Of a stretch of DNA of 64,000 bases, positions 53,908-58,496 are shown one piece after another. The stretch is taken from positions 558,001 through 622,000 of the forward strand of contig CP003096.1 of assembly GCA_000233775.1 (NCBI GenBank). The letters run 5' to 3'. Position 1 is the stretch's first letter, and the number at the start of each line of letters is the position of its first letter. Position numbers and translations under genes: made by a program. The stretch comes from Thermovirga lienii DSM 17291 (GTDB lineage: Bacteria > Synergistota > Synergistia > Synergistales > Thermovirgaceae). Below the pieces are notes generated by a model. The model worked only from the letters and a program-made list of their open reading frames with translations. It ran no database searches and had not been told where the DNA came from.

Positions 53908-53935
53908 ATATTTTGGTTTCATTCCAAGCTCCGCA

Positions 53936-54118
53936 TCTCGCGGTGACTCTGATGGCAGGGAAGGAGGTGCGACCCCCGAAGGCCACAAAGGGCAAGCGGG
54001 ATTGAGGAGGTCTCCGAAACAACAGGCAAAGGGAAGGCCCGAAAAGGAAACGAGGATACTTTAGGGATTCCCGGCTTGGTGTGAGGAGGCTAAATACACA
54101 TCAAGGGGGTAAGAAAAT
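53936..54118 (+). promoter_or_regulatory. Conserved 5' leader of SLH porin gene 1, candidate structured RNA
   Basis: 183 bases between promoter and start codon, nearly identical to 55660-55841 before the second porin. It is purine-rich and not coding in style. GCAGGGAA (53955-53962) can pair with UUCCCGGC (54068-54075), closing a roughly 105-nt domain; in copy 2 the unpaired base of this helix changes from G to A while the pairs are kept. The ribosome-binding site is AAGGGGG at 54103-54109, with a further AGGAGG about 30 bases before the start. No known riboswitch class was matched. Confidence 0.55.
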
Positions 54119-55489
54119 ATGAGAAAGCTAGTTGCATTAGTAGCAGTAGCAGCGCTCGTTGCCTTTGCGGCACCTGCGTTTGCAGCCAATCCTTTCATGG
54201 ATGTTCCTATGAACCACTGGGCCTATGATGCTGTCAGCCAGCTCGCAGCCCGTGGAATCGTTACCGGTTATCCCGATGGCGCCTTCAAGGGCCAGTGGAA
54301 GGCCACTCGTTACGAGATGGCTTCTGTAGTAGCCAGAGCTCTTGCCTATGTTGACATGAACAAGGCGAGCAAGGAAGACCTCGAGCTCTTGAAGAAGCTC
54401 GTTGTGGAGTTCAAGGACGAGCTTGATGCTCTCGGAGTCAAGGTCGAGGACCTCGACAAGAGGGTAGGTGTTCTTGAGGACGGCGTAGGCGGCTGGAAGT
54501 TCTGGGGAGAGCTTCGCTTCGATGCTAAGTGGGCCGATGATGGCGGAGCCTACGGTCTCACCGGCGACACTGATTTCACTATGAGCAGGTACCGCATTTG
54601 GATGAAGAAGAAGGTCGACGATAAGGTTACTTTCATTGCTCGTTTGGGTGGGGAAGATGTTGCCTTTGAGCGCTATTATGTCTCCGTTGCCCTTCCTTGG
54701 GATGCCACGGCTTGGATAGGCAAGTGGCTCTATGACTGGGAAGACGAGGACGGCTTCTACATCGATAACGATGCATGGTTCACCGACCAGACTGCTAAGG
54801 GTTTCTACTTCACGAAGCCCTTTAGCATGGGCCAGTTCGATGCTTTCGTCACCCATTCTGAGGCAACCACAGCTCGCGTGACTACCGGAGAGGCTTACTA
54901 CTATGGCGCAAGGTTGAAGTTCGCCTTCAACGACCAGTTTGGCATGGGTTTTGTCTACTTGAAGAAGGACTTTGATGAGGATGTAAACGACGAAGGTGCA
55001 GATTGGGATACCTACTGGGCCCAGGCTTACGTGAACTTCACTCCAGACGTAACCCTCCGCGGACGTTACATCTGGCAGGAAATCGACGGTTTCGATGACA
55101 CCAATGCATACCAGGCTATCTTGCAGGTTGGCCAGGACACCCTCGGCTTCACCAGCTTGTGGATTGAGTATGCAGACCTCGAGAAAGATTTCGCGATTGA
55201 TACCGCCGATCCTTATGCAAACTACGGTGCCGATATTCTTGGAACAGCAATGACTGAAGATACCGAAGTATGGTTCGTAAGGGCCGACCAGAAGTGGAAC
55301 GACACTTGGGGGACCTTCCAGCGCTACGTCACCGTTGATAAGGCAAGCGACGTAGATAACTTCACCTTCGGCGTTAACTACTGGTATACTCCGAACATCA
55401 AGTTTGAACTCGTCTACGACGATGTCGACTATGATAACGATACTCAGGACGACAGCCTCTTAAGGCTCCGTACCCACGTGTGGTTCTAA
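54119..55489 (+). CDS. SLH domain porin 1 (S-layer-homology outer membrane protein)
   Basis: A 456-residue outer membrane protein. The signal peptide (MRKLVALVAVAALVAFAAPA, cleaved after AFA) is followed by an SLH domain (about residues 24-70: FMDVPMNHWAYDAVSQLAARG, then GYPDGAFKG and TRYEMA), a coiled-coil (about 85-125, with LKKLVVEFKDELDALG) and an aromatic-rich beta-barrel of about 320 residues ending in WF. SLH domains bind the cell wall, so the protein should tether the outer membrane to peptidoglycan while acting as a porin, as OmpM does in Negativicutes. The first 125 codons match porin 2 nearly exactly. A strong terminator follows. Confidence 0.9.
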   Translation: MRKLVALVAVAALVAFAAPAFAANPFMDVPMNHWAYDAVSQLAARGIVTGYPDGAFKGQWKATRYEMASVVARALAYVDMNKASKEDLELLKKLVVEFKDELDALGVKVEDLDKRVGVLEDGVGGWKFWGELRFDAKWADDGGAYGLTGDTDFTMSRYRIWMKKKVDDKVTFIARLGGEDVAFERYYVSVALPWDATAWIGKWLYDWEDEDGFYIDNDAWFTDQTAKGFYFTKPFSMGQFDAFVTHSEATTARVTTGEAYYYGARLKFAFNDQFGMGFVYLKKDFDEDVNDEGADWDTYWAQAYVNFTPDVTLRGRYIWQEIDGFDDTNAYQAILQVGQDTLGFTSLWIEYADLEKDFAIDTADPYANYGADILGTAMTEDTEVWFVRADQKWNDTWGTFQRYVTVDKASDVDNFTFGVNYWYTPNIKFELVYDDVDYDNDTQDDSLLRLRTHVWF

Positions 55490-55512
55490 TATCGTCAGTA
55501 TAGTGTTACCGT

Positions 55513-55550
55513 AACAATGGGGACGGCATGTGCCGTCCCCATTGTTTTAC
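55513..55550 (+). terminator. Rho-independent terminator after SLH porin 1
   Basis: AACAATGGGGACGGCA (55513-55528) and TGCCGTCCCCATTGTT (55531-55546) form a near-perfect 16-bp stem followed by TTTTAC. It is long and strong, as expected for a highly expressed gene. Confidence 0.9.
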
Positions 55551-55628
55551 TTTTACATACTAGTTGGTTTTGCTTTTGTTACGGGAACTTAGCTAATCTT
55601 CCTATGGCATGTAAATCACTTATTATTA

Positions 55629-55640
55629 TATAATTGTAAT
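55629..55640 (+). promoter_or_regulatory. Putative -10 region of the second SLH porin gene
   Basis: TATAAT (55629-55634), or TGTAAT (55635-55640), which is at the position matching porin 1. No clear -35 is visible. The rest of the 55551-55628 gap is AT-rich with nothing recognisable. Confidence 0.35.
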
Positions 55641-55659
55641 CAAGATTTGGTTTCGTATA

Positions 55660-55841
55660 TCTCGCGGTGACTCTGATGGCAGGGAAGGAGGTGCGACCCC
55701 CGAAGGCCACAAAGGGCAAGCGGGATTGAGGAGGTCTCCGAAGCAACAGGTAGGGGAAGGCCCGAAAAGGAAACGAGGATACTTTAGGGATTCCCAGCTT
55801 GGTGTGAGGAGGCTAAATACACATCAAGGGGGTAAGAAAAT
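55660..55841 (+). promoter_or_regulatory. Conserved 5' leader of SLH porin gene 2, candidate structured RNA
   Basis: 182 bases, nearly identical to 53936-54118. Differences are concentrated in one loop-like segment (ACAACAGGCAAAGG in copy 1 versus GCAACAGGTAGGG here) and a single G-to-A change after TTCCC. Together with the preceding terminator and -10 region it fills the gap of about 350 bases between the porin genes. Confidence 0.55.
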
Positions 55842-57605
55842 ATGAGAAAGCTAGTTGCATTAGTAGCAGTAGCAGCGCTCGTTGCCTTTGCGGCACCTGC
55901 GTTTGCAGCCAATCCTTTCATGGATGTTCCTATGAACCACTGGGCCTATGACGCTGTCAGCCAGCTCGCAGCCCGTGGAATCGTCACCGGTTATCCCGAT
56001 GGCGCCTTCAAAGGTCAGTGGAAAGCCACCCGTTACGAGATGGCTTCCGTAGTAGCCAGAGCCCTTGCCTATGTTGACATGAACAAGGCAAGCAAGGAAG
56101 ACCTCGAGCTCTTGAAGAAGCTCGTCGTCGAGTTCAAGGACGAGCTCGATGCTCTCGGAGTCAAGGTTGAGGACCTCGACAAGAGAGTTGGAGTTCTCGA
56201 GAGCGACATCGGTGGTTGGAAGCTTTGGGGTGAGCTCCGCTTCGACGCCAAGTGGGCTGACAATAGCTGGCCTCCCTCATCAATAGGAGAGCCTTCAGGG
56301 ACTCATTTAGATGTGCCGCTAAATGCTTATTCGACGACCGGCGACACCGATTTCACCATGAGCAGGTACCGAATCTGGATGAGCAAGAAAGTTGACGACA
56401 AGGTCACTTTCTATGCTCGTCTTGGCGGAGAAGACGTTACATTTGAGCGCTACTATGTTTCTGTGGCCCTTCCCTGGGACGCCACTGCTTGGATAGGCAA
56501 GTGGAACTATGACTGGGAAGACGAATCAGGCCTTTATGTGGATAACGATGCGTGGTTCACAGATAGGGTGCTGAATGGATTTTATCTCAACAAAACCTTT
56601 TCAGGAGGAAATTTTTCAGTTTTCGTTGCCCACGAGGAAACGTCATATCCAGATGTGGAGTACATCGAAGATTTGCTGGACAGTGATCTTTCGGGAGTCA
56701 ATATAGATGGCTACACCTACGGTGCTAGGCTGAATTATAATTTTAATGAGAGGTTCCGGTTGGCAGGACAGGCTATCTGGCGCACGTTTGACGATCCAAT
56801 GCTGGACGACCTCACAAACGATTTATTCGATAAGTCCATCGATACGATGAACGTATACTGGGCAGATTTTGGGGTTAAATTTACTCCCAGCATAGAACTC
56901 AAAGGCGCATATTTTTGGCAGAATTATACGGGGCTAAATAATTGGGATATATTGACAGGTATCGATACAGATGCTTACAGTGATCTTTTGGATTACGCAG
57001 AGGACAATCTTACCCTTGTTGAGCATGATCCTAATGCTTGGAAGGTTATTCTCGACGTGAAGCAGGAGGCCACTGGGTTTACTAGCCTTTGGCTTGAGTA
57101 TGCCCAGTTTGATAAACACTTTATGACCTTTAATCCCCCTTACGATGATTACACTAATGGGTGGCTGTGGGGGACTATCACACCTACCTTGACAGGGTTC
57201 GGATTGCCTTATGTGGGCGGCATTCCTTACCTTGGTGCCATGGCATGGGGCGGCCTTCCTTCAGATGCTGATGCAGTGCTGGTTCATCTAAACCAGAAGT
57301 GGAACGACAAATGGGAGACTTTCCAGCGTTACGTAAAGTTTGACCTAGATCCCGTTGCAGTTTCCTGGTACAACTTGGACGAAAGCGGAGAGGCAGCTGT
57401 GGATGCAGATGTGACAGAGTGGAACCTTGGAGTTCGGTATTGGTACACGCCTAGTTTGATGTTTGAGCTATCGTACAGCAAGTATAAACTGGATGGTAGC
57501 CTTAATGTGACTCAAGAAGTGGTGGATCAAGAACCATATAGCGAAGGGTATTCTGCTTCTGTAGAGGATGATATGATCCGGTTTAGAACGTGGGTGTGGT
57601 TTTAA
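55842..57605 (+). CDS. SLH domain porin 2
   Basis: A 587-residue paralogue of porin 1. The signal peptide, SLH domain and coiled-coil (residues 1-about 125) are almost identical in protein and DNA. The barrel is longer (about 455 residues) and diverges soon after GGWKLWGELRFDAKW, with inserted loops (e.g. about residues 145-165) and a terminal WVWF. Segments such as WNDKWETFQRYVKF and WIGKWNYDWEDE still align. Different loops with the same anchor suggest different solute preference or surface variation. It has its own promoter, leader and terminator. Confidence 0.9.
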   Translation: MRKLVALVAVAALVAFAAPAFAANPFMDVPMNHWAYDAVSQLAARGIVTGYPDGAFKGQWKATRYEMASVVARALAYVDMNKASKEDLELLKKLVVEFKDELDALGVKVEDLDKRVGVLESDIGGWKLWGELRFDAKWADNSWPPSSIGEPSGTHLDVPLNAYSTTGDTDFTMSRYRIWMSKKVDDKVTFYARLGGEDVTFERYYVSVALPWDATAWIGKWNYDWEDESGLYVDNDAWFTDRVLNGFYLNKTFSGGNFSVFVAHEETSYPDVEYIEDLLDSDLSGVNIDGYTYGARLNYNFNERFRLAGQAIWRTFDDPMLDDLTNDLFDKSIDTMNVYWADFGVKFTPSIELKGAYFWQNYTGLNNWDILTGIDTDAYSDLLDYAEDNLTLVEHDPNAWKVILDVKQEATGFTSLWLEYAQFDKHFMTFNPPYDDYTNGWLWGTITPTLTGFGLPYVGGIPYLGAMAWGGLPSDADAVLVHLNQKWNDKWETFQRYVKFDLDPVAVSWYNLDESGEAAVDADVTEWNLGVRYWYTPSLMFELSYSKYKLDGSLNVTQEVVDQEPYSEGYSASVEDDMIRFRTWVWF

Positions 57606-57746: not shown

Positions 57747-58496
57747 ATGAAAAAGTTTTTTGGGATATCAATACTATCTGGCATTCTTATGCTTACTTTG
57801 ATATCAGCAGTGGCTTCTGCGGCACCCTACGATGAAATAATTAGAAAATGGACTCGGCAAGAGACGTACAAAGATGATTTTCAGGCAGAGCTTACCATTA
57901 AAGTGACGTATTACGCATCAGAGTATATTGATGCCTTGATTCAGAAGGAAGCGGAGAAAAACCTGTGGACCAAGGATGAAATGGAAAACTACCAGTATCA
58001 GCTTTTAAAAAGCTTATCACTTGAGGAGTATGTTCCATTTTACATAGAATTTGATAACAGGGGGCCTGCCATGCACATGGCACCTTTCAACGAGCAAATC
58101 ACCCTGTGGGTAGGCAAAAAGCAATATAAACCAGTAGATTATGAGAAGAGATTCAATTTTGCACTGACAGGTAAACGAGGTGGATTCGTCTATTTCCCCA
58201 GATATGATGAAAAGGGCAAACCTATTCTGGAAGGTGTTAAAACCATAAGGCTTGTAATAAACGGCGGGATAAGTGCCCAAACGATAGGTAAGACAATAGA
58301 GTTCTATTGGGACATAGATAAAGATTCTGGGGGAGCCTATTTGGCAGGGAAAGCCGCCGAGCGTCTAGAGGCAGACAGGCTGATAAAACGCCTTGAAAAG
58401 CTCAACGACCAAAAGAAGGAACTTCAAAAACAGCTTGACGAGCTTGATAAGGAAATCCAAAAGATAGAAGAAAGGCTCAAGGAACTGCAGAATTAA
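57747..58496 (+). CDS. Secreted coiled-coil protein of unknown function
   Basis: 249 residues, no recognised family. A signal peptide (MKKFFGISILSG... ending VASAA) is followed by a globular region (about 28-200) with YYASEYIDALIQKEAEKNLW, FYIEFDNRGPAMHMAPF and FVYFPRYDEKGKPIL. A heptad-like coiled-coil closes it (about 205-249: RLEKLNDQKKELQKQLDELDK). Probably periplasmic. AGAGGGGGT precedes the ATG by about nine bases. It lies between porin 2 and pfkA, after a strong terminator, so it has its own promoter. Confidence 0.7.
   Translation: MKKFFGISILSGILMLTLISAVASAAPYDEIIRKWTRQETYKDDFQAELTIKVTYYASEYIDALIQKEAEKNLWTKDEMENYQYQLLKSLSLEEYVPFYIEFDNRGPAMHMAPFNEQITLWVGKKQYKPVDYEKRFNFALTGKRGGFVYFPRYDEKGKPILEGVKTIRLVINGGISAQTIGKTIEFYWDIDKDSGGAYLAGKAAERLEADRLIKRLEKLNDQKKELQKQLDELDKEIQKIEERLKELQN

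Follow-up and report, generated by a model that had tools for sequence, protein, structure and literature searches.

The SLH porin locus and its two leaders

The window analysed here is a stretch of 64,000 nucleotides from Thermovirga lienii DSM 17291 (CP003096.1, positions 558,001 to 622,000). It carries two neighbouring genes for outer-membrane proteins of the SLH porin type, each with a leader in its 5' UTR, and the features discussed below are listed in Table 1. A nucleotide search of the whole genome (1,967,774 + 31,872 bp) found two copies of the leader, both in the window, and the only two SLH genes of the genome above the Pfam cut-off are those preceded by it.

According to an earlier reading of the DNA, made from the letters alone and hereafter called the sequence-only reading, the two leaders are near-identical, purine-rich, distinguished mainly by one short segment, and preceded by dissimilar DNA. 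All of this was borne out. Over 186 nt the leaders (53935-54118 vs. 55659-55841) share about 97% of their bases; most differences fall around 54019-54030 vs. 55743-55753, and a further base differs close to 54073. Their similarity sets in at 53935 and 55659, that is, at the first base of helix P1: 60 of the first 60 bases of the element are identical, compared with 24 of 60 just upstream. Purines make up 66% of the leaders and 55% of the window.

The similarity between the two copies runs on through the signal peptide, the SLH domain and the coiled coil, and ends in the barrel region, where it falls to 46 of 60 identical positions from about 54476 and then to indels. Up to that point the two porin genes (54119-54475 vs. 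55842-56198) are about 90-100% identical per 60-nt block. Since the high identity extends across the signal peptide and the SLH domain, the leader appears to be part of a larger unit, and the comparison suggests a homogenised 5' module in the porin pair, with the barrel meanwhile diversifying. Because a terminator-like hairpin lies between the two genes, gene 2 and leader 2 probably form a separate transcript. Within the leader itself, no terminator was found.

Two further observations concern the surroundings. Just 5' of P1 there is a string, CTTGGAT...GCTTC, which is conserved in many relatives (e.g., L029:2713-2730 and L018:1484-1500); it is unlike a typical sigma-70 promoter and may represent an unusual promoter or the RNA start. 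The gene 3' of the second porin (57747-58496) encodes 249 aa, belongs to no Pfam family and has a G-rich SD, AGAGGGGGTTA.

Table 1. Features of the two leaders and their genes (window coordinates).
Feature	Position	Strand	Remarks
Leader 1	53935..54118	+	conserved RNA element, 5' UTR of SLH porin gene 1; from sequence comparison
Domain 1 of leader 1	53934..54003	+	covariance model R1, 61.6 bits
P1, 5' strand ATCTCGC	53935..53941	+	pairs with 53996-54002; covaries in relatives
P2, CTC	53947..53949	+	pairs with 53990-53992, GGG
P3, GGC	53954..53956	+	pairs with 53982-53984, GCC
P4, 5' strand GGAGGU	53963..53968	+	pairs with ACCCCC, one conserved mismatch; also complements 16S 3' end
ACCCCC, leader 1	53972..53977	+	P4 3' strand and putative anti-SD
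P1, 3' strand GCGGGAT	53996..54002	+	covariation
P5, 5' strand GGTCTCC	54009..54015	+	domain 2; pairs with 54085-54091
P7 element AAGGAAACGAGGATACTT, leader 1	54044..54061	+	near-invariant motif specific to these leaders
P5, 3' strand GGAGGCT	54085..54091	+	domain 2
SD AAGGGGGT, gene 1	54103..54110	+	putative anti-SD target
SLH porin gene 1	54119..55489	+	456 aa; signal peptide, SLH domain, presumed outer-membrane barrel, SlpA/OmpM-like
Terminator-like hairpin	55513..55546	+	between both porin genes; 16-bp perfect inverted repeat, then T-rich tract
Leader 2	55659..55841	+	conserved RNA element, 5' UTR of SLH porin gene 2; from sequence comparison
Domain 1 of leader 2	55658..55727	+	covariance model R1, 63.6 bits
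P1 of leader 2	55659-55665 with 55720-55726	+	counterpart of leader 1 P1
ACCCCC, leader 2	55696..55701	+	P4 3' strand and putative anti-SD
P7 element, leader 2	55767..55784	+	same motif as in leader 1
SD AAGGGGGT, gene 2	55826..55833	+	putative anti-SD target
SLH porin gene 2	55842..57605	+	587 aa

Covariation defines two domains

Domain 1 is composed of the helices P1 (7-8 bp), P2 (3 bp), P3 (3 bp) and P4, in which GGAGGU faces ACCCCC. P1-P3 were recovered unprompted by RNAalifold, and all eight pairs of P1 covary. When the pairs of P1-P3 were counted, 86% of the cells were paired and 11 of the 14 pairs had changed on both sides; double-changed cells numbered 50, compared with 21.1 in shuffles (0 of 500 as good), and controls with slid partners scored far lower. 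The core of the domain consists of highly conserved purines that are partly unpaired. In P4 the outer pair covaries, being G-C, U-G, U-A, C-G or A-U, and GGAGAU goes together with AUCCCC. The third pair of P4 is a mismatch kept in at least 75 of the 93 leaders (A x C in 73, U x C in 2), as it should be if a second partner also depends on the C strand.

Domain 2 contains P5, which also covaries (own partners 13.91 vs. swapped 12.55; 0 of 5000 swaps as good, a count to be taken as support and not as a probability, since swaps ignore relatedness), and the P7 element. The latter, AAGGAAACNNGGNNACUU, is 18 nt long, hardly varies across 83 leaders and is almost exclusive to these leaders among the 61 genomes scanned. 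Its outer pairs covary, and in one clade it reads GAGGAAAC..ACUC, where the closing pair has changed from A-U to G-C by compensation. The sequence-only reading had instead closed the leader by a helix between 53955-53962 (GCAGGGAA) and 54068-54075 (TTCCCGGC). On paper it forms seven of eight pairs, but covariation in relatives lends it no support (own 8.68 vs. swapped 8.70; 1143 of 2000 shuffles as good), and it was given up.

Distribution of the leader among Synergistota

By nucleotide search, parts of the leader are found in 19 of 61 related genomes, and the regions upstream of SLH porin homologues in public genomes exhibit the same leader architecture. A covariance model of domain 1, R1, was built from 28 sequences. 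It matches 113 of 183 genomes of the order, representing 45 of 59 genera and all ten families, and also G187, a genome from a different branch of the phylum. For the R1 matches that had been fetched, the genes that follow were identified: at 30 bits or more, 69 of the 70 readable places have an SLH outer-membrane protein gene downstream. The spacing between match and gene is normally 124-204 nt, and shorter where an in-frame upstream start was taken. R1 matches that score less than about 30 bits should be checked by other means. Those at 23-28 bits are a mixed set, some of them chance matches within coding regions; the match L147 (28 bits) has neither P7 nor a porin gene, and a cyanobacterial genome scores 25.5 bits. 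In the phage collection, no match to the leader was found.

Some individual loci deserve mention. The single exception among the 70 (L142, G128:C66:9200-11400; 54.9 bits) is a complete leader with P7 that is followed by no SLH protein; it may be a relic, a rearranged copy, or the leader of a different regulated gene. In the genome G040 the leader occurs ten times, and a stretch of 9 kb (L202, G040:C4:105800-115000) holds five of these copies: a multi-copy porin family with one common RNA leader. A bin labelled 'Clostridiales bacterium Firm_16' (L044, LVAV01000038.1) contains a leader and an SLH porin that are both typical of Synergistota, so this label is probably wrong.

The sequence-only reading had supposed a cis-acting RNA, to be sought by a covariance search before SLH porin genes, and had named a lack of covariation or confinement to this locus by recent duplication as grounds for dropping the idea. 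Covariation is present, and the leader occurs beyond this locus. Judged by its compensatory changes, its near-exclusive place before one gene family and its phylum-wide distribution, the leader is a real and widely conserved cis-acting RNA, not a duplication artefact.

Predicted pairing between domain 1 and the Shine-Dalgarno sequence

The SD of both genes, AAGGGGGU, is of the GGGGG type (GGGGGU), and its complement, ACCCCC, forms the 3' side of P4. Most relatives have, in domain 2 behind P7, a further C-run that offers the SD another partner; a good second anti-SD of this kind is lacking in the two leaders of the window. Both segments match the SD of their own gene better than permuted ones do (domain 1, 19.3 vs. 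18.35; domain 2, 18.21 vs. 17.2; 0 of 2000 in each case, again as support only, since permutations ignore relatedness). Independently compensated pairs of anti-SD and SD include CUCCC/GGGAG (L030), UUCCCCC/GGGGGAA (L157), UUUCCCCC/GGGGGAAA (L099), CAACCCC/GGGGUUG (L012, L008), AAAGCUUCC/GGGGGCUUU (L050) and, in a deep branch, CUCCUUGG/CCAAGGGG (L151).

In five genomes (G012, G036, G043, G055 and G136) the same porin genes occur without domain 1, and here the SD is ordinary (GAGGAGG or CAGGAGG), with no matching CCCCC (loci L205, L207, L208, L212-L215, L217-L219 and L223; one readable locus each for G012 and G136). The joint absence of domain 1, the special SD and the anti-SD indicates that they are functionally tied, though essentially one clade is involved. 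In this clade the P7 element alone remains of the leader, and GGDEF proteins are not detectable in the genomes.

Energy calculations, which ignore tertiary structure and pseudoknots, predict that the leaders of the window are bistable, either with P1 formed and the SD free or with ACCCCC bound to the SD, and that the two states differ by no more than about 1 kcal/mol. For leader 1 the two states have -59.8 vs. -59.6 kcal/mol at 37 C and -33.2 vs. -33.7 at 58 C; for leader 2, -59.5 vs. -58.7 and -33.3 vs. -33.6, respectively. When folded without constraint, leader 1 adopts one state and leader 2 the other. Some points weigh against a switch, among them the lack of a good second anti-SD in the leaders of the window. 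The SD is free in the minimum-energy folds of 36 of the 93 leaders, and a GGGGG SD is not unique: of the 81 window ORFs with 150 aa or more, 6 have one. Moreover, C-rich stretches will always show some complementarity to an SD.

A putative translational switch and its alternatives

Based on the comparative and folding data, we consider the leader to be a two-domain cis-acting translational RNA switch of riboswitch type for the SLH outer-membrane protein, with a probability of roughly 0.6. The ACCCCC of domain 1 could pair either with the mismatched GGAGGU of P4 or with the SD, GGGGGU, of its own gene. If domain 1 is held in the P1/P4 fold, ACCCCC would be occupied, the SD free and the protein made; if not, ACCCCC would capture the SD and initiation would stop. 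The balance is probably set by a ligand, as in riboswitches, and its sign may be on or off. Since ACCCCC lies inside the domain closed by P1 and the SD lies outside, pairing of the SD with P1 intact would form a pseudoknot; the opposite sign, in which a ligand-stabilised pseudoknot is the OFF state, is possible on this model. As a riboswitch in general does, the leader couples, on computational grounds, an aptamer-like conserved domain to an SD expression platform. No metabolic pathway in the context of the porin genes hints at the ligand.

Alternatively, a protein could bind the leader and repress or activate the gene, as in feedback by the porin itself or control by CsrA or a ribosomal component. 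Autoregulation typically shows such a near-exclusive association with a single gene family, the genome has a gene for CsrA, and there is complementarity between the conserved AAGGAGGUG and the 3' end of the 16S RNA, GGATCACCTCCTTTCT. However, P7 does not conserve a GGA at its second GG, and CsrA is absent from some leader-bearing genomes, including G047, which is a single contig and 99% complete; as a general regulator it was therefore rejected. Similarly, relatives with GGUGGU, GGAGAU or UGAGGU have lost the complementarity to 16S but retain the P4 pairing, and 16S pairing was rejected as the main role of AAGGAGGUG. We regard a protein regulator as unlikely overall.

The leader might also be a constitutive element that stabilises the mRNA and enhances translation of a very abundant protein, its complementarity between C-rich strand and SD being incidental. 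Long and stable leaders are common among abundant envelope proteins, the porin is presumed to be the major envelope protein, and other genes in the window have GGGGG SDs too. Against this, both anti-SDs change along with the SD, domain 1 is lost together with the special SD and anti-SD while the gene is kept, and the conserved unpaired nucleotides of the core go beyond the needs of a stability hairpin. Such an element is thus quite improbable.

A cyclic-di-GMP riboswitch, which was suggested for the SLH motif described below (Stav et al., 2019; PMC6429828, as far as the available text goes), would fit the GGDEF proteins present in most leader-bearing genomes and missing from the clade without domain 1, a correlation that may be meaningful. 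It is disfavoured because two genomes that carry the leader, G141 (with two copies; 99% complete) and G059 (100% complete), have no detectable GGDEF domain, and the leader has no similarity to the Rfam cyclic-di-GMP classes at E up to 10, so we give this ligand very little credence. An RNA thermometer is disfavoured as well, since genomes from gut and rumen retain the element just as those of thermophiles do (according to record titles), and a likeness to the cobalamin riboswitch core (GGAA..GGUGC..CC) found no support in Rfam.

Returning to the translational switch, a bolder version is that the leader represents a new class of riboswitch or sensor, whose ligand is tied to the state of the outer membrane or cell wall, in which a persistently mismatched aptamer helix and the SD draw on the same C-rich strand, a back-up anti-SD being frequent, and which sets the amount of outer-membrane tether across the phylum. 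This is put forward tentatively, with the odds against it. SLH porins of the SlpA/OmpM type have been proposed to be what chiefly ties the outer membrane to the cell wall in diderm Terrabacteria, including Synergistetes (PMC9388160).

Comparison with known systems

With the Rfam 15 covariance models, no match to the leaders was found at E up to 10; the search returned only chance microRNA, snoRNA and sRNA matches outside the leader. In the literature, however, an 'SLH motif' riboswitch candidate from Thermovirga lienii (Synergistetes) has been published, with 80 examples and a proposed cis-regulatory role; in the available text about 60% precede SLH-domain protein genes, and matches in Firmicutes, in Clostridia and Negativicutes, are reported (Stav et al., 2019; PMC6429828). 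Consequently, of the earlier interpretation the cis-acting RNA stands and the closing helix falls, while the statement that no known class fits holds for Rfam and not for the literature. Judged by host and gene context as described in the available text, the leader is almost certainly this motif, and the locus in the window is very likely among those from which the motif was defined. The existence of the leader is therefore rated as already known.

The available description and the present leader share the Synergistetes host and the place before SLH-domain protein genes. They differ in that about 60% SLH association and Firmicutes matches are reported there, whereas here 69 of 70 readable matches at 30 bits or more precede an SLH gene. 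SD sequestration, proposed here, is not mentioned in that text as far as it was available; on the same basis, the second anti-SD, the clade that lost domain 1 and the GGDEF and CsrA comparison also appear to be new. The RNA has counted as a riboswitch candidate without a ligand since 2019; the proposed choice between two exclusive pairings pinpoints a few bases for a mutational test, and the genome comparisons speak against the published guess at its ligand.

Among established riboswitches, the preQ1 and SAM-II types act on translation by pseudoknots that sequester the SD. The leader resembles them in having an aptamer-like domain that holds the SD-complementary strand, but it is much longer, often has two anti-SD segments and has no match in Rfam. 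Another likeness, at the level of general description, is to the S-layer gene slpA of Thermus thermophilus, in which a long 5' UTR also precedes and controls an SLH-type envelope protein; there, the control is mediated by a protein, in contrast to the ligand-set switch proposed here.
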